Position numbers and translations under genes: made by a program. From Diploptera punctata (Eukaryota > Arthropoda > Insecta > Blattodea > Blaberidae): a stretch of 64,000 nt of DNA. Location of the stretch: the NCBI GenBank assembly GCA_030220185.1, contig JASPKZ010009687.1, positions 62,001 through 126,000 on the forward strand, read 5' to 3'. The stretch's first letter is position 1. The number at the start of each line of letters is the position of its first letter. Shown here in pieces: positions 8,430 to 54,319 of this stretch. A model generated the notes under the pieces. It saw only the letters and a list, made by a program, of their open reading frames with translations. It was not told the DNA's origin and made no database searches.

Positions 8430-11010
8430 TATTATTATTACTTACTTACTCACTGGCACTATCGAACCCGTAGGTTCATGGCCGCGCGGACATAAGCTCT
8501 CCATACATCCCTATCCTGAGCTAATGCTTTCCAATCATTCCCTGTATAATCTACTTCCCTCAAATCATAGTTAATGTTGTTCTCCCACCTCATTCTTGGT
8601 CTACCAACTGGGCGTTTTCCTTCTGGCTTTCCTACAAGAAGTTTCCATGCACGTCTTTCTTTCCCCATACGCGCAACATGTCCTGCCCATCGCAGTCTAC
8701 GAGACTTAACTGTTCTTATTATATCTGGCTTCCTATAAAGACCATGTAGTTCATTGTTATGTAGTCTTCTCCATTCACCTGTCTGTTCATCTCTCTTTGG
8801 TCCAAAAATTTTCCTAAGAACTTTATTCTCAAATACTCGCAATCTCCTTTCCTCCCTTAAAGTAAGAGTCCATGTTTCGCACCCATATAATATAACTGGT
8901 AGAATAATAGTTTTATATATTTTCAGCTTAACGTTTTTTGAAAGGAGTTGGGACATCAAAAGTCACTGTAATGCATAATAGCACGCATTTCCAGAATTGA
9001 GCCTATGTTTAATTTCTTTGTGCATCTCATTCCTATTTGTGATTATTGTTCCTAGGTATTTGAATTCAGCCACTTCCTCAAAATTTCCCTCATTTGTCCT
9101 TAGATGTCCATTTCCATTATATACTGAATTTCTACGTGTGACCATATATTTAGTTTTATTGATATTTACTTCCAGTCCCAATTTCTTAGTGTTACTCAAT
9201 AGTGTGTGCGTGTTGGCCTTTAGTATCTCCTCGCTATCGGACAGTAGTACTACATCATCAGCATAAACTAACAGCTTATTAATACCATTCAGTTGTAAGC
9301 CTTCCTCATTCTCTAAAGATTTAATGGCATGCTCTAGTACAAAATTAAATAGTAGAGGAGATAGTGCATCTCCTTGCTTCAACCCATTCTGGATTTCAAA
9401 AGTGTCTGAAAACTGTTTGCCTACACGCACCCTACTCTTTGAGCCATTTAGACACATTCGTATAAGTCTAACTAACTTTTTAGGAATTCCGAACTCCAGC
9501 AGGATACTATATAACTTCTCCCTCTTAATTGAATCATATGCTTTTTTGAAGTCTACATATAGTTGATGTACAGTACCATTATATTCCCATTTCTTTTCTA
9601 AAATCTGTCTTATACTAAAAATCTGATCTGTTGTAGACCTGTTTCTTCTAAATGCACATTGATGATCTCCTAGAATGTCATCAATATAGGGAGTAAGTCT
9701 GCTTAATAATATATTTGTTAGAATTTTGTACGAAGTTGAAAGTAATGAGATGCCCCTGTAGTTGTTGCAATCAGTTTTATCTCCTTTCTTATAAATTTGG
9801 TAAGATAATTGATTCCTTCCATTCATCTGGAAGAGCTTCTTTTTCCCAAATCATACTAAGCAACCAACGTATCTTGTCCATCAATTTTTCTCCCCCTGAT
9901 TTTATCAGTTCTGCTGGGATCTCATCTGAACCTGATACTTTATACATCTTCAATTTTTCAATCGCCATTTCAACCTCTAATGCACTTGGCTCTGCGACAA
10001 GCATTTCTGCTGTCTGTAACTTATCCTCTTCAATGTCTTGTTCTGTATGTACATTTAATAGCTGATTAAAGTAACTTTTCCATCTATTTAATATACTCTT
10101 AGAATCTGCAATCATATCCCCATTTTCATTCCGAATTATGTTTGTTCTAGCCTGAAACCCTTTCTTCTCTATACTAATTCCATGATATAATTCTCTAATG
10201 TTCCTATTTTTTGCGTTCATTTCAAGATCATTAATCTTCTCTCTCAAATATTCCCTCTTTTTACTCTTTAGTAACTTGGTGGTTTCCCGTCTAACACTAC
10301 CCAATTGCTCTAAATTTACCTCATTTGAATTATATTATTTTTGGTCTGGACATCTTACCTCAATATTAATGTTGATTTGTTCTTGGACATGTTTCAAAAC
10401 ATGTTTTGAAACATGTCCAAGAACAAATCAACATTAATATTGAGGTAAGATGTCCAGACCAAAAATAATATAATTAAAATAACCTCAAAATATAACTTCC
10501 TAAAATTAAATATTAATATTACCTCATTTGGCTCGTGTAACCATTTCATTTTTGTTAGCTTTCTTTTCTTTACAATGTCGGCACATTCCTCATCAAACCA
10601 TTTCTTGTTTTGCCTCTTTTTTAAACAACCAATGCTTTCTGATGCTGACAATTTAATAGTATCTCTTATAGCCTCCCATTCTTTATTTATATCAGTTTCT
10701 TCTTCATTTGCCACATTGTCATCTGAAGATTCCAGTACTTCAAATCTATTAGCAATTTTGATTTGGTATTCTTGCCGCATTTCATCATTTTTCAAGTTTT
10801 TTAATTCATATTTTACAGAATCATCTGTAGCGTTTGTTCCTCTCATAAGCGATAGCCGTTGTCTGATTTTCACTCTGACCAGATGATGATCCGAATTGCA
10901 GTCTGTCCCTCTAACTGATCTAACATCAATGATGCTACTGTGCCAGCGTTTATCCACTAATACATGTTCTATCTGGTTCCGAGTTTCTCCATCTGGAGAC
11001 GTCCAGGTGT
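8430..11010 (-). pseudogene. RTE-like LINE, 5'-truncated and frameshifted
   Basis: Second-best copy of the 57-60 kb element. Reading from 11010 down: the end of the endonuclease domain (TWTSPDGETRNQIEHVLVD and SDHHLV), the linker, RT motifs YRGISLLSTSYK, VDFKKAYDSI, GLKQGDALSPLLFN and LVYADDVVLL, then YGCETWTL and the tail. It is split into frames 10394-11068, 9789-10304, 8963-9826 and 8459-8959 by frameshifts near 9810 and 8960 and by a 191-bp insertion (10328-10518). One EN residue differs (NQIEH for NQIDH). The 3' end is the stop codon plus 16 bases and TAAG repeats. Confidence 0.9.
10328..10518. mobile_element. Penelope-type palindromic insertion with 12-bp TSD
   Basis: TTACCTCATTTG is present at 10316-10327 and again at 10519-10530, but only once in the intact LINE copy at 59 kb, so 10328-10518 is an insertion. 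Its first 148 bases (10328-10475) form a perfect palindrome centred at 10401/10402. The remaining ~43 bases carry AACCTCA...ACTTCCT, the tail shared with Penelope-like ends at 40050 and 53900. The arms match the sequence downstream of the ribozyme cleavage site of the Penelope copy at 39870-39915. Confidence 0.9.
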
Positions 11011-26450: not shown

Positions 26451-26514
26451 TGAGACCGGAACAAGCCACATGGGCTTAATCTGTGATTGTTGATGTTGAC
26501 AAATAAGTTTTGTC

Positions 26515-26860
26515 TATCTTCATCTTACCTCATAAATAGTTGTCTCTTGTAAAACATGTTTCAAAACTTCTTACTTTCATCTTGAGTTGTTACAGACTGA
26601 TCTCTAAGTTGTTGGCCCTGGATCTCGACTCCAGGGACTATAACTTAAGGAGCATCAGTCTGTACCAATAATGTATGTAGCTAATGCTCTGGAGTTAACA
26701 ACAAAGTTTTTCTCCTTGTCTGTACCAATGAAGAAGGAGCAAAGATGCTTTGAAACATGTCTTACAAAAACAGCAAAATGTGAGGAAGATGAAGCAGACC
26801 CAACAAATTTATTGAGTAGAACATATTATAATGTTAGTTCCTATTATATTTTCATAATAA
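26515..26860. mobile_element. Decayed Penelope-type end with opposing ribozyme remnants
   Basis: Minus-strand GAAACAUGUU (26545-26558 region) is preceded by a degraded CUCAAGA. Plus-strand AAUGAAGA...GAAACAUGUC lies at about 26733-26775. The two face outward around a spacer with its own small palindrome (CCCTGGATCTCGACTCCAGGG). The end ATAATGTTAGTTCCTATTAT matches other Penelope-type ends. Both cores carry a substitution in CUGANGA. Confidence 0.6.
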
Positions 26861-35339: not shown

Positions 35340-35500
35340 ATAAAAGTTCCTATTTTAAGGGTGCAGGAGTTGAGTGTCACAACTCTCTTATAGCCTATGT
35401 TCATTCCAGGAATCTCCTGAACATTTTGAAAAAAAACCCCATCACAATCGGATCAACGGTATGGCCGCGCATAAGTATGAACAAACAAACAAATTATATT
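35340..35500. repeat. Piece of the 27.3-kb repeat
   Basis: AACTCTCTTATAGCCTATGT and GAACATTTT...CCCCATC recur from 27450-27520. It abuts the inverted tRNA-like pair. Confidence 0.55.
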
Positions 35501-35517
35501 TGAAGAGAAAATTTTTT

Positions 35518-35590
35518 GCCTAGACCGAGACTCGAACCCGGGACCTTTGGCTTGCCGGGCCAAATGCTCTACCAACTGAGCTACCGAGGC
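35518..35590 (-). tRNA. tRNA-like unit, loop CCGGCAA
   Basis: Minus-strand anticodon stem TTGGC/GCCAA with loop CCGGCAA. The anticodon would be GGC, with C at position 33. Part of a repeat. Confidence 0.4.
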
Positions 35591-35728
35591 GAGTTATGAT
35601 CTAGATGCAAATTTTTCTCTTATGTACGTTGTAATTCCCTCTTGCCAAATGCTTTTGAAACCATTGCTTCTATCTTTGCAAAGATATATATGTATATAAG
35701 AGAAAAATTTGCGTCTAGATTGTAACTC

Positions 35729-35801
35729 GCCTCGGTAGCACAGTTGGTAGAGCATTTGGCCTGGCAAGCCAAAGGTCCCGGGTTCGAGTCTCGGTCTAGG
35801 C
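35729..35801 (+). tRNA. tRNA-like unit, anticodon GGC
   Basis: GCCTCGGTAGCACAGTTGGT, anticodon loop CTGGCAA (U33 present, anticodon GGC, which would be Ala), T-arm CCGGGTTCGAGTCTCGG. One mismatch in the acceptor. It is the best tRNA candidate of the family along with 45683-45755, but repeat-embedded. Confidence 0.45.
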
Positions 35802-35954
35802 GAAAATTTTTCTCTTCAAATATAATTTATCTTTCAGTGAGAAATGTTAAACCAATAATAAAAACAAACATACATTAATTTTTATATATAAGATATGTTT
35901 TGTATATTATATTAGTGAATTATGTTGTGTTATGCAGTGTTTTATATTAGTTTC

Positions 35955-37615: not shown

Positions 37616-37766
37616 GTTATAATATACAATTTGATGTGTTTTATTTTTTCTCCATTAGGGTGCATTCTTACAATATTGCGATCCTATTTTGCAATAAATA
37701 ATATGATCTAGTTGCAGTGGATGAACAAATGAAGAAGCATAACCAAACATTTCTAATTTTTTCTTG

Positions 37767-37800
37767 AACATGTTTCAAAACAGTTCTATTTTATCGTCAG
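37767..37800 (-). ncRNA. Hammerhead ribozyme core at Penelope 3' end
   Basis: Minus strand: CUGACGA (37794-37800), stem II AAAAUA/UGUUUU with a GAAC loop, GAAAC (37772-37776), AU, then GUU (37767-37769) as the cleavage triplet. All conserved core bases are present. Stem III is two pairs with a two-base loop and is self-complementary (ACAUGU), so dimer action is plausible. Confidence 0.75.
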
Positions 37801-39160
37801 CTTGTCCAGACTGGTTTTATTTATGTTGTATTATGTTGCATACCCTGGATGTCGATGTCAGCTCCATCCTGTGGTTGGCCAAAGAACCTCCAAACAAGGT
37901 CACGCTCCATCGGTACATCAAAATTCATAACTCTGTTTTTGTTCTTCTGAATATAAATTTTTTCCCAAATAGTTAGCTCTTTTGTATTTTCTAACTGTTT
38001 TAATAATTTAGTGTCTGAATTTATATTATGTTTTTCAGACGAAACATGAGCAGCAACTGCAGATTTTTCTATTTCCCCATTTTTTATATTTCTTATGTGT
38101 TCTTTGGTTCTAATTTTTAGGTTTCTTTTTGTTTTTCCTATACATATCTTTTCACAACCCATGCATTCAATTTGATATATTCCTGACTTTTTATTTTCAT
38201 CAGTTTTTTCATTTTTGTTGGTTTTCATTAGTTTATTTAAACTGTAGTTATTTTTCGGTGCTAATTTAATATTAAACTTCTCAAATATCTTTTGGATTTT
38301 ATTATGTACTCAAGTGTGATATGTGAATTTCCTATATTTTTTCGTAGGTGGTTCTTCTCTTTCAGCTGTACTTCTGTTCATATTTTTTGTTTTTAATACT
38401 TTTCTATTCTTTTTTGTACCATTTTTTCATCAAACCCGTTTTCTCTTGCTACTTTGATTATGTGTTTTTTCTCATGTTTGAAATCTTCTTCGTTTAAGGG
38501 TAAGTTTACCAATCTATGAGTTAAACTATTGAAGGCTGCTAATTTATGTCCAATTGGATTGAACCCTGTTGATTTAATAAAATTTTCCGTATGAGTTTCT
38601 TTCCTATGAATCCCAAATTCAATTTTTCTTTTTTCTTCGTTTGTGATCAATTTAAGATCCAAAAAAGGTATTTGTTTATTTTCTTCTATTTCTTTGGTAA
38701 ATTTGATGTTTGTACTCTGTAAATTTAACAGTTTTAGGGAATCTTCTACATGTTTTTCTTTTACAATACAAATTATATCATCTACATATCTGCTCCAAAA
38801 TTTAAACATTGTGGGATGTGCTTTAGTGATTTTACATTCAAAATTGCTCATAAATAAATTTGTCAGGAAAGGTGATAATGGGTTTCACATTGAGAGCCCT
38901 GATTTTTGTCTATAGAAACTTCCATTGAATGTAAAAACATTTGGTCAATACATAACTCAGGTAATTTCAAATAATCTTCTTTGATCTCTCTGTCTATGTT
39001 GTTTTTACTTAACCAGTTGTTCAATAACTCCAAAGTTTTTTGTTTCAGTACATTTGTGAACAATGAAACGACATCAAAGGAAACCAACCTATCTGTAGGT
39101 GCAATTTCCACTTTTTCTAATTTCTTAACTAATTTCCAATACAAAATTTCAAAAATGGAT
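37767..39160 (-). pseudogene. Penelope-like element, RT and GIY-YIG (left copy)
   Basis: Minus-strand frames: RLVSFDVVSLFTNV and LPELCIDQMF (38863-39144), FKFWSRYVDDIICIV (palm YVDD) and NIKFTKEIEENKQIPFLDLK (38393-38851), then a linker, then the GIY-YIG domain (37821-38228) with KSGIYQIECMGCEKICIGKT, RNLKIRTKEH (Arg, His), EKHNINSD and IWEKIYI (Glu). This RT plus C-terminal GIY-YIG layout defines Penelope-like elements. It is 5'-truncated and has breaks near 38855 and 38240-38390. It ends in a hammerhead at 37767-37800. Confidence 0.93.
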
Positions 39161-39926
39161 GAATAATGAATTTAAAAGAATTAATAATTTTGAAAGTCTG
39201 CAGATTGAAAATTCATTGGAATGGTACAAAAAAGAATAGAAAAGTATAAAAAACAAAAATATAAACAGAAGTACAGTTGAAAAAGAAGAACCACCTACAA
39301 AAAAATATAGGAAATTCACATATCACCCTTGGGTACATAATAAATTCCAAAAGATATTTGTGAAGTTTAATATTAAATTAGCACCGAAAAATAACTACAG
39401 TTTAAATAAACTAATAAAAACCAACAAAAATGAAAAAAACTGATAAAAATAAAAAGTCAGGAATATATCAAATTGAATGCATGGGTTGTGAAAAGATATA
39501 TATAGGAAAAACAAAAAGAAACCTAAAAATTGGAACCAAAGAACACACAAAAAATATAAAAAATGGAGAAATAGAAAAATCTGCAGTTGCTGTTCATGTT
39601 TGGTCTGAAAAACATAATATAAATTCAGACACTAAATTATTAAAACAGTTACAAAATACAAAAGAAAAAATCTATTTGGGAAAAAATCTATATTGAGAAG
39701 AACAAAAACAGAGTTATGAATTTTGAAATATCGATGGAGCATGACCTTGTTTGGAGGTTCTTTGGCCAACCACAGGATGGAGCTGACATTGACATCCAGG
39801 ATATGCAACATAATACAACATAAATAAAACCAGTCTGGACAAGCTGACAATAAAACAGAATTGTTTTGAAACATGTTCAAGAACAAATCAACATTAATAT
39901 AGAGGTAAGATGATCAGACTAAATAT
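39161..39926 (+). pseudogene. Penelope-like element, GIY-YIG part (right copy)
   Basis: Opposite orientation to the left copy, sharing the RT-GIY linker and the GIY-YIG domain (39430-39696: KSGIYQIECMGCEKIYIGKT, NLKIGTKEHTKN). The Arg of the RTKEH motif is Gly here, and a frameshift at about 39665 separates the EKIY region. It starts at about 39161 right after the left copy's RT start, so the two are head to head. Confidence 0.9.
39844..39877 (+). ncRNA. Hammerhead core, mutated
   Basis: CUGACAA, stem II AAAACA/UGUUUU, GAAACAUGUU. The second conserved G of CUGANGA is A, which is expected to abolish cleavage. Otherwise as in the left copy. Confidence 0.7.
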
Positions 39927-50179: not shown

Positions 50180-50357
50180 GTAGAAGAAAATTATTAATTT
50201 AACTCTTAAATTAAACCTCATATGTTTTTTTTTTCCCTGTGAAAGTTAAATAAGTAATGGTATTTATTTAACTTTCACAGGGAAAGAACACTATGAGGTT
50301 TAATTTAAGAATTAAATTAATGTTTTTATTACCTCACCTCATATCCTTTTTCTTCTA

Positions 50358-50390
50358 TACTGCAGTTTCGGAGCTTATCTCCATCGTCAG
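50358..50390 (-). ncRNA. Hammerhead ribozyme core (subfamily 2), minus
   Basis: Minus strand identical to 50453-50485: CUGACGA (50384-50390), stem II GGAG/CUCC, GAAAC, UGCA, GUA (50358-50360), then UAG pairing with CUA. Confidence 0.8.
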
Positions 50391-50452
50391 TAGCCTCTGG
50401 TCGACTGGTGTTATGGCCAAGAAACGACATAACACCGGTCGACCAGAGGCTA

Positions 50453-50485
50453 CTGACGATGGAGATAAGCTCCGAAACTGCAGTA
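50453..50485 (+). ncRNA. Hammerhead ribozyme core (subfamily 2), plus
   Basis: CUGACGA (50453-50459), U, stem II GGAG-AUAAG-CUCC (50461-50473), GAAAC (50474-50478), UGCA, cleavage triplet GUA (50483-50485). Stem I begins CUA/UAG. Stem III ACUGCAGU is self-complementary. All conserved bases are present. Confidence 0.8.
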
Positions 50486-50496
50486 TAGAAGAATAA

Positions 50497-50975
50497 ATAA
50501 TAGTTTTAAAAAACTAAAACAGCACGCTTTATTAGAAAACCGAACTCAAAAATGAAAATAATTTTAATTTCCAACACGCTTGCGATAAATTTAAAGTGAT
50601 CAACAAAAACATCATCTCCAACACATATAGAATAAAACTAGAATTATCAACAAAAAGAAAATAATTTTACTATCAAAAGCGTGGGGTGCTCTATATCAAT
50701 TAATATATTTGATAATAAACAGATATTGGTAAAAGTAAAGTCTCTAAGAAGAACATGTAAAAATCATAAAAAGCACCCCACGCTTTTGATGGTAAAATTG
50801 TTTTCTTTTTGTTGATAATTCTAATTTTATTCTATATGTGTTGGAGATGATTTTTTTGTTGACCACTTTATTTTATCCCAAGCGTATTGGAAATTAAAAT
50901 TATTTTAATTTTTTAGTTTTCTAATAAAGCGTGTTCTTTTAGTTTTTTAAAACTATTATTTATTTTTTATTTTTT
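50497..50975. repeat. Foldback, ~195-bp arms
   Basis: 50497-50690 and 50775-50970 are inverted copies (e.g. TTTTAAAAAACTAAAACAGC with its complement; AAGCGTGGGGTGC at 50678 with GCACCCCACGCTT at 50770). The spacer of ~85 bp is unrelated. It directly abuts the ribozyme pair and probably belongs to the same element. Confidence 0.85.
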
Positions 50976-51730: not shown

Positions 51731-52150
51731 AGGTCAAGCTAATATAAAGCGTGTAAAAAGGATATGAGGTGAGGTAATAAAAACATTTATTTAATTCTTA
51801 AAGTAATGGTATGTTCAAATCTGAAGAAAACATTTCTTTAAGTATAAGCAGTAACCTGACGAATTTGAATAAGCCAACAATGGACAATGAGTAATTATAT
51901 CATATTGATAAATATTATTTTTTCCAATTTAATTAAAACAATTTAATTACATAAACATTTTTTCTATTGGATTACATACATACATGGATTTTTAACAAAT
52001 GTAACAAAACAAATACTGAACAACAATGATCATGCACAATTTTAATTCCTCCTCTTTCCCCCTTCAAACTTTGTTTCAATCAACAGATACATGTGAAATT
52101 TATACCTTAGTCAATATGTGTTTTACTTAAGTCTCAAGTAATTTTCATTA
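51731..52150. other. AT-rich spacer
   Basis: GGATATGAGGTGAGGTAATA at 51759 is a Penelope-type end motif, also seen in complement at 50325 and 24640. Nothing else recognised. Confidence 0.4.
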
Positions 52151-52700: not shown

Positions 52701-53400
52701 GTCCTGGCAGTTATATTCTTATATCTGTAATACTGTATTTTGAAGCCATAAAATTGAATGTTATCTTTAAATTTTTTTTTTCATTAAACTATTTAAAGAT
52801 CGTAACTGGCCAGTAGGCCTAAGACTTGGTTGGATAAAGAAGAAGGCATATTGTTTTTAAAGGACTATTTTACTGAATCTCTTCCAGGAGCTTTATCGTG
52901 TAGTGAATAAAGTGTCCTGAAAATCAACTACTTCCTGAGAAAAGTGTACCAATAGATTAAAAAAAATGTGATTTTTCCAGAATTATTGAAAAATTAATGT
53001 AGGCTGAATGATGTCATGTAGTTAGAATAAAAAATAATGATGTGCAGAACTGTGCCCTGTCTCTAGTTCTAAGGTTTGGAGGTACAAACCTGGCCAGTAT
53101 CATTTCAGGGCATTAAATCCAAATCCTGATTATGGGTAAAGCTGTGTCTTACAGAACATAAACAACCTGAAGCCTGAAATACAAGGGCTTTAAACAAGAT
53201 TTTGTTAGCCATTTCAATCTTGTACTTAAATTGTGATGCTAGAGTGTTAAATAAAATACTATATATAGCTCACAGTTGGAATCTGTATGTGAAAGCTCTT
53301 GTTCTCACTTGACTCTGTTTTAAATCTTCCAAACTAACTGATACTCTGCTTGGGTTTGAACATGCAAACCTTGGAACCAGAGGCAAGCACTAATCCACCA
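52701..53400. other. Intron, no gene seen
   Basis: No exon or transposon domain recognised. It ends in a (GT)n run, 53402-53420, which overlaps the acceptor region of the next exon. Confidence 0.35.
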
Positions 53401-53426
53401 GAGTGTGTGTGTGTGTGTGTTGGCAG

Positions 53427-53585
53427 GAGGAGTGGGAGCTGGTGTTTGTATACCTGCTGTGTTATCCAGGTGTAGTGCAGAGCTGTGTAGCAGGCGGCAG
53501 GTTGTCTCCCAACCTCATGTGCAAGTTCATTAAGGAACTGACTAACTGCTTCAGTGTCTACTACAGGAGAATTCGCATCCTCACT
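53427..53585 (+). CDS. Dalrd3: DALRD3 exon (DALR domain)
   Basis: The acceptor TGTTGGCAG ends at 53426, right after a GT repeat, and the donor ACT|GTAAGT is at 53586. 53 codons, phase 0 at both ends, in phase with the 47745 exon. It reads EEWELVFVYLLCYPGVVQSC, LCK-like MCKFIKELTNCFSVYY and RRIRILT. It corresponds to the GEWLLLFN-ILPFPDLL...[22 protein letters not shown] stretch. The SxYY-R-R-IL motif is typical of the DALR fold. Confidence 0.78.
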
Positions 53586-53770
53586 GTAAGTTACACCAAT
53601 CATTTTAATTTGTACACTTAGCAATTATATTTGCAGTTTTGAATTTTGTAGCATTCTGAAAAAAATAAACATAACAAAATTTTATGAGTTATATCTAATG
53701 ACAGGTAATGAGTTTTAATAAATAAGGTGAATCTGTTGCATCTTACTTAATAAAACTTGAATTCTTTTAT

Positions 53771-53804
53771 GACATGTTTCAAAACAATTCTGTTTTATCG
53801 TCAG
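53771..53804 (-). ncRNA. Hammerhead ribozyme core (subfamily 1), minus
   Basis: CUGACGA (53798-53804), stem II AAAACA/UGUUUU with loop GAAU, GAAAC (53776-53780), AU, GUC (53771-53773). Canonical core and cleavage triplet. Stem I is weak on this strand. Confidence 0.78.
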
Positions 53805-53814
53805 TCTGGACAAG

Positions 53815-53848
53815 CTGAAGATAAAACAGAAGTGTTTTGAAACATGTC
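53815..53848 (+). ncRNA. Hammerhead ribozyme core (subfamily 1), plus
   Basis: CUGAAGA (53815-53821), stem II AAAACA/UGUUUU with loop GAAG, GAAAC (53839-53843), AU, GUC (53846-53848), then CU pairing with AG before the core. It has the full set of conserved bases. Confidence 0.8.
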
Positions 53849-54283
53849 CTAAAAGAACTCTTATATGAAGTAACATGCAACAGACTCACTGTATTTATTA
53901 AGAAGAACCTCATAATGTTACTTCCTATTGTAATTTTATAACAACTTTTAAACTTAAAATCACTTTTTAAAGGGAAATAAATTGTATTGTCCATTTATTT
54001 TAAATTGATCAGCACACAGAAAAATATAATAAAGTGATGAAGGTTAAACATCAAAACAGAAAAAAACATAATTTTATATTGATATCAAACCCAGAATAAT
54101 ATAAAGAAATTAGCTTAAGAGCCAGTTTCACCAACATAGGTAATGTCAGTTTCCCTGTGTATAATGCATAGCATAAAATGGCGTAATGCAGTTACCTCTG
54201 TTGGTGAAACCGACCCTTAGTCATGAAAGTTGAATAATGTTGAATGAAATCATTTGGTTTCTTATATTCACACTTTCTTGTAG

Positions 54284-54319
54284 GACCCAAAATACATGGC
54301 AGAGTTCCTTGGTTATTGA
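54284..54319 (+). CDS. Dalrd3: Possible DALRD3 terminal exon
   Basis: After CACTTTCTTGTAG the phase-0 reading is DPKYMAEFLGY followed by TGA at 54317. In vertebrates RVHIL is followed by G-EPRPHLF and about 40 more residues, so DPK could be the counterpart of EPR, but the rest does not match and the C-terminus would be short. It may be a chance acceptor, with the real last exon beyond or hidden. Confidence 0.22.
   Translation, partial: DPKYMAEFLGY

Follow-up and report, generated by a model that had tools for sequence, protein, structure and literature searches.

We have identified a short palindromic element (C) that is very probably a decayed head-to-head pair of Penelope-like pLTR-type ends, lodged in an intron, derived from minimal dimer-type hammerheads and probably functionless. 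It was found in the window, i.e., the whole stretch of 64,000 nucleotides of Diploptera punctata DNA that was analysed. Counting against decay is the intactness of both cores of C, though five of eight homologous units have lost theirs. The initial annotation had placed two hammerhead cores on opposite strands, 10 bp apart and inside an inverted repeat; both were found exactly there, and the repeat contains both of them (Table 1). They do not represent two separate ribozymes: since both are arms of one palindrome, the two cores are mirror copies and not independent. The two 36-nt core stretches differ at three positions (N7, loop II and N1.1), all of them positions at which the hammerhead core tolerates change, which likewise counts against decay; the change at N1.1 abolishes stem I on the minus arm.

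Table 1 Features of the window: element C, homologous and other units, and the host gene
Feature	Position	Strand	Remarks
Palindrome B	10323-10480		98.7%; junction within stem II loop; both cores without 5' half
Head-to-head copy D	26501-26860		cores mutated: ATGAAGA, CTCAAGA
Core of unit A-	37767-37800	-	intact core, cleavage triplet GTT; after ORF pieces
GIY-YIG endonuclease piece, locus A ORF	37824-38309	-	Pfam GIY-YIG 17.3 bits, E 0.0061 (below cutoff of 22.6)
Reverse-transcriptase piece, locus A element	38396-38884	-	Pfam RVT_1 25.1 bits, E 1.6e-05 (below cutoff of 29.6)
Core of unit A+	39844-39877	+	G8 -> A; after second, inverted copy of ORF end
Back-to-back pair E, palindrome	50347-50496		cores 50390-50358 (-) and 50453-50485 (+); CTGACGATGGAGATAAGCTCCGAAACTGCAGTA
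Probable penultimate coding exon, DALR-domain (DALRD3-like) gene	53427-53585	+	open, 53 aa; GTAAGT follows, GT donor at 53586
Inverted repeat of element C	53715-53901		83% identity over 190 aligned columns; arms 53759-53804/53815-53860, 91%; 53715-53755/53861-53901, 85%
Hammerhead-like core, minus arm of C	53804-53771	-	CTGACGA-TAAAACAGAATTGTTTT-GAAA-CATGTC
Junction spacer TCTGGACAAG	53805-53814	+	natural 5' flank of C plus unit
Hammerhead-like core, plus arm of C	53815-53848	+	CTGAAGA-TAAAACAGAAGTGTTTT-GAAA-CATGTC; sense to host gene
Penelope-type 3' tail AACCTCATAATGTTACTTCC...	53902-53943	+	right side of C only; motif common with 10482 and 40044
Block TTTGAAACATGT	10405, 26749, 39865, 53836	+	
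Block TTTGAAACATGT	10398, 26565, 37779, 53783	-	
Putative last exon, DPKYMAEFLGY-stop	54284-54319	+	11 codons, from sequence reading; AG acceptor 54282-54283

The spacer between the two cores also precedes the cores of units A- (37810, minus) and A+ (39834, plus). It probably adjoins the inversion junction, with a possible 3-nt overlap (CAG) there. Exact matches of the tail motif in the window number three (10482, 40044 and 53907), all on the plus strand and none on the minus strand. The ACCTCA...ACTTCC end, which the initial annotation called shared, lies only to the right of C and is common to other elements and not to the two arms. No clear target-site duplication was seen when the flanks of C were inspected by eye.

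A blast search of C against the window returned relatives (E <1e-4) near 10.4, 26.5-26.9, 37.8 and 39.8 kb. Altogether, eight homologous units are present at four loci (A, B, C and D, two units each), and the right unit of C aligns together with its tail to D and A. Units A- and A+ follow pieces of a Penelope-type ORF, and the Penelope origin suggested in the initial annotation is thereby supported within the same window. The ORF of locus A consists of interrupted pieces (37.7-40.1 kb); the presence of a reverse transcriptase and GIY-YIG ORF next to the repeat is a property of the homologues A- and A+, not of C itself, and its Pfam matches are sub-threshold. Searching proteins with the endonuclease piece yielded 25 homologues among 104 candidates. 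Eight of the 25 are from Diploptera punctata (three of these named GIY-YIG domain-containing), including the best one (E 2.8e-62, 68% identity), and 17 are unnamed. Locus A is itself arranged head-to-head: the segment 39220-39888 repeats 37756-38423 in inverted orientation (94%), with one core at each outer end. Inverted head-to-head pLTRs with an optional one-sided tail were likewise found in C. Sequence comparison thus supports the derivation of C from a Penelope-type element.

The CTGANGA string is intact in three of the eight units (C plus, C minus and A minus), and in the remaining five (A+, D+, D-, B+ and B-) the core has lost either a base or its 5' half. In contrast, the block TTTGAAACATGT in the 3' half is identical in all eight. 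This difference may point to a non-ribozyme role of the block, or may be due to small numbers.

Covariation was analysed in an alignment of six units from three loci (A, C and D, two each); when E and F were added to give nine sequences, E was misaligned, and the three E/F rows do not enter the pair counts. Over the closing stem I pair, stem II and the two ACAUGU pairs, 96.3% of 54 cells are paired in the six units, with two-sided changes in three of nine pairs. Stem II has 5-6 bp, with 97.2% of its cells paired in six copies and two-sided changes in two of six pairs. The closing pair of stem I, the only pair of this stem counted, covaries and is unpaired in one of six copies (C minus), and the two stem III pairs are invariant across the six units. 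Neither the covariation score nor the percentage paired of the hammerhead structure was reached by any of 500 shuffles, and six slid versions of the structure all fell below it on both. Two of the five covariation measures are less clear: the number of two-sided pairs was reached by 10 of 500 shuffles, and that of further pair types by 315 of 500. Covariation supports the descent of the C cores from a hammerhead; the support is not conclusive, as the six sequences represent only three loci. A rival local hairpin, GGACA/UGUCC, which is the MFE structure of the isolated C plus unit, was rejected: 66.7% of its 30 cells are paired, without any two-sided change, and it is lost in D.

The model trained on the six A, C and D units (R1) gave 15 matches at E up to 10. 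Its matches to C (73.0 bits for the minus core, 78.6 bits for the plus core) are to members of the training set; in a held-out test, B was recovered on both strands (E 4.8e-06 each). Seven matches belonging neither to the training set nor to B had E values of 0.25 or more, and loci E, F and G were not among the 15. R1 therefore represents one family and not hammerheads in general, as it finds B and misses E, F and G.

A strict hammerhead descriptor, which requires stem II and a short stem III and was drawn up once the motif was known, matched the window six times, compared with a mean of 0.14 and a maximum of two in 300 first-order Markov sequences. C and E account for two of these matches each, A and F for one each; grouped into three sequence families, they correspond to a Poisson P of ~4e-4. 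The loose pattern, comprising core strings only, had five matches in the window against 0.93 expected, a number reached by one of 100 shuffles; three of the five lie outside C and fail the strict descriptor. A chance origin of the C cores was rejected on account of the descriptor excess, the ORF-adjoining homologues, the one-sided tail and the covariation.

The initial annotation predicted a self-cleaving RNA from whichever strand is transcribed and made this depend on a hammerhead covariance-model match, which Rfam did not provide. At gathering thresholds, the whole window yielded 11 matches, all of them tRNA and none a hammerhead; at E up to 10, the region 53600-54050 yielded 15, none of them a hammerhead and all under gathering scores. 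Both C cores possess the CUGANGA ... GAAA ... NUH arrangement with the triplet GUC, together with stem II, and to this extent the complete set of conserved bases claimed for them stands. It does not extend to the flanking helices. The contiguous stem I has 2 bp on the plus strand and 0 bp on the minus strand, where the inversion junction stands in place of the natural 5' flank. The stem III sequence, ACAUGU, is palindromic. Within one molecule it could pair only around a 2-nt loop, and such a monomeric stem III is predicted to be unlikely; two molecules might pair through it, in keeping with the dimer mode reported for Penelope hammerheads. Each strand of C carries one sense copy and one complement, therefore a same-strand dimer is impossible within C.

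When folded in isolation, four sequences surrounding the cores did no better than shuffles (z 0.10, -0.31, -0.73 and -1.64). For the 246-nt C, the best fold of the plus strand is -96.3 kcal/mol versus -51.9 kcal/mol when constrained to the hammerhead, which puts the hairpin ahead by 44; on the minus strand, with only stem II enforced, the values are -100.4 and -68.0 kcal/mol, and the hairpin leads by 32. Double-hammerhead dimers reach -5.0 for C+ (best dimer -21.6), -10.4 for C- without stem I (best dimer -28.0) and +2.6 for the ORF-adjoining A- (best dimer -21.0). All these energies take no account of tertiary contacts or protein help, and some activity might occur despite the weak predicted fold, since the C dimer energies are negative and the Anolis hammerhead needed its protein. 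The lack of an Rfam match, the stem I of 0-2 bp and the hairpin advantage of 44/32 kcal/mol nevertheless make self-cleavage of C from either strand unlikely in these models. RNA spanning the whole element should, by the same predictions, form a single long hairpin from the two arms, with both cores hidden. Most likely, C has no present-day function.

The upstream exon matches Pfam DALR_1 with 19.3 bits (E 0.0013), and a PDB sequence search with it gave no match at E 0.05. The assignment of the host gene to DALRD3 in the initial annotation is plausible, with the DALR_1 match being weak and under the Pfam cutoff of 22.3. C probably sits in the last intron of this gene, because a GTAAGT donor is found upstream, and an AG acceptor followed by 11 codons and a stop downstream. 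The cores start 185 and 229 bp past the donor and together span 185-262 bp downstream of it; the annotated position within 150 bp of the donor applies to the left end of C (129 bp), not to either core. The same probable intron contains another short, MITE-like inverted repeat (54116-54219), with 28-nt arms of 86% identity.

The location raises the question of a role in the host transcript. The plus core is intact, in sense orientation and in a probable intron, and human genes with intronic hammerheads have been described (PMC6155905), all of which would suit an active ribozyme that cuts the pre-mRNA of the host gene and modulates its splicing. We consider this very improbable: the contiguous stem I of this core is 2 bp, its stem III loop would be 2 nt, the competing hairpin is better by 44 kcal/mol, Rfam gives no match and C has no second copy on the same strand. 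Alternatively, C might matter as a long hairpin, i.e., as intronic dsRNA, a small-RNA source or an editing substrate, unrelated to the ribozyme. The fold energy of -96 to -100 kcal/mol over 246 nt would fit such a role, as would several sub-threshold Rfam matches to microRNA precursor models (53600-54050). However, all 15 Rfam matches are under gathering, long hairpins would be expected to yield matches of this kind, and a role as a hairpin seems decidedly unlikely. The narrower reading of C as a microRNA precursor was rejected, as the Rfam microRNA matches are all under gathering scores.

A DNA-transposon origin, with C as a MITE whose arms carry a hammerhead-like string by chance, could account for a short palindrome with AT-rich ends and for the vicinity of another short inverted repeat (54116-54219). 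It is scarcely credible and largely refuted by the homologous unit that follows Penelope-type ORF pieces, the tail on one side only, the stem II covariation and the descriptor matches above chance. C was also rejected as a retrozyme, as no direct repeats were found in 53400-54300.

The opposing pair in C is accounted for by head-to-head pLTRs, an arrangement already known from Penelope elements. According to published descriptions, the pLTRs of Penelope are inverted, their head-to-head junction is palindromic and one of them may carry a 31-bp tail, and self-priming has been proposed for these junctions (PMC3846280); hammerheads are not mentioned in the main text of that article. In the origin that we favour for C, each end would have consisted of a minimal dimer-type hammerhead (stem II, a stem I of 1-2 pairs and the palindromic stem III ACAUGU), followed by the tail. 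A Penelope transcript with such a unit at its end would have been reverse transcribed, the inverted partner would have arisen close to the unit's 5' end through self-priming or template switching, and the short head-to-head product would then have been inserted.

At the junction of C, the first core base of the minus arm borders on the plus-arm flank TCTGGACAAG; in B, the centre separates the two strands of stem II, whose loop is missing. These positions suggest, and do not show, that ribozyme structure helps to place the junctions. We consider it unlikely that the hammerhead aids its own mirror image in this way, with stem II or the 5' edge of the ribozyme stopping the reverse transcriptase and seeding a self-primed junction; the junction of A, which is inside the ORF, counts against ribozyme-placed junctions. 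Should junctions be ribozyme-seeded, solo back-to-back pairs would be a regular by-product of the replication of ribozyme-bearing Penelope elements. If junctions across the genome proved to be concentrated at the ribozyme, it would become possible to test the role of Penelope hammerheads, which has been called still a mystery (PMC7761336).

Minimal dimer-type Penelope hammerheads and head-to-head inverted pLTRs are both already published, and C is a decayed addition to them. A dimer mode has been reported for Penelope hammerheads (PMC6466107, PMC7761336). C shares with the minimal Penelope-like hammerheads, as described by Cervera & de la Pena 2014 and Lunse et al. 2016, the core, the short stem II, the reduced palindromic stem III and, in its family, the adjoining GIY-YIG/RT ORF; unlike them, it has a contiguous stem I of 0-2 bp, and its copies are head-to-head without a same-strand tandem. 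With Pen2a of Adineta vaga it has in common the inverted pLTR pair, the junction palindrome and the one-sided optional tail, whereas C has no ORF between its ends (PMC3846280). The Poseidon element PAc of Anolis likewise carries pLTR hammerheads of Penelope type; its hammerhead was reported active only with its protein, without which no cleavage was seen, and dispensable for insertion in vitro, and C has a weak predicted fold (PMC11167929). PAc is tandem and expressed, has the assistance of a protein and is conserved across species of Anolis (PMC11167929), whereas the ORF here is in interrupted pieces. Metazoan retrozymes are, like C, short non-autonomous repeats with type I hammerheads, and differ in consisting of tandem direct repeats (170-400 nt) whose type I hammerheads are canonical and make loop contacts (PMC7229834), C being inverted and minimal. 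No description of opposing or miniature Penelope hammerheads was found in titles and the beginnings of abstracts; Cervera 2014 or Lunse 2016 might hold one.

The present analysis adds a cockroach genome in which several Penelope-type families with hammerhead-like motifs are arranged head-to-head. As a signature of paired, opposite hammerheads arises from inverted pLTRs, it is alone no sign of bidirectional self-cleavage.

Another back-to-back pair in the window (E) appears, from the structural predictions, to be a better candidate than C. Its arms are 97% complementary, stem I has 3 bp on both strands, and the double hammerhead of the plus unit is predicted at -19.3 against -25.7 for the best dimer. 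Rfam gave 21 matches in 50300-50560 at E up to 10, none of them a hammerhead. The right tail of E (51755-51806) is ~1.26 kb away across other repeats, probably nested insertions.

A palindrome at 774-980 carries CTGAAGA-AGGTACAATATACC-GAAAA-CAGCTGTA at 882 on the plus strand (with one extra A) and GAAACAGCTGTA at 849 on the minus strand. Judged by sequence, it is possibly a further Penelope hammerhead family, with a stem III that is also palindromic. A single hammerhead-like motif is present at 18306-18270 on the minus strand, with a possible 3-bp stem III and a 3-bp stem I; GAGGTGAG is found downstream of it, as in other units of the window. Head-to-head palindromes in the window also include tRNA copies in opposite orientation, namely two tRNA-Cys (aca) at 1509-1747 and two tRNA-Ala (ggc) at 35491-35828, with repeats of 95% and 84%, respectively.
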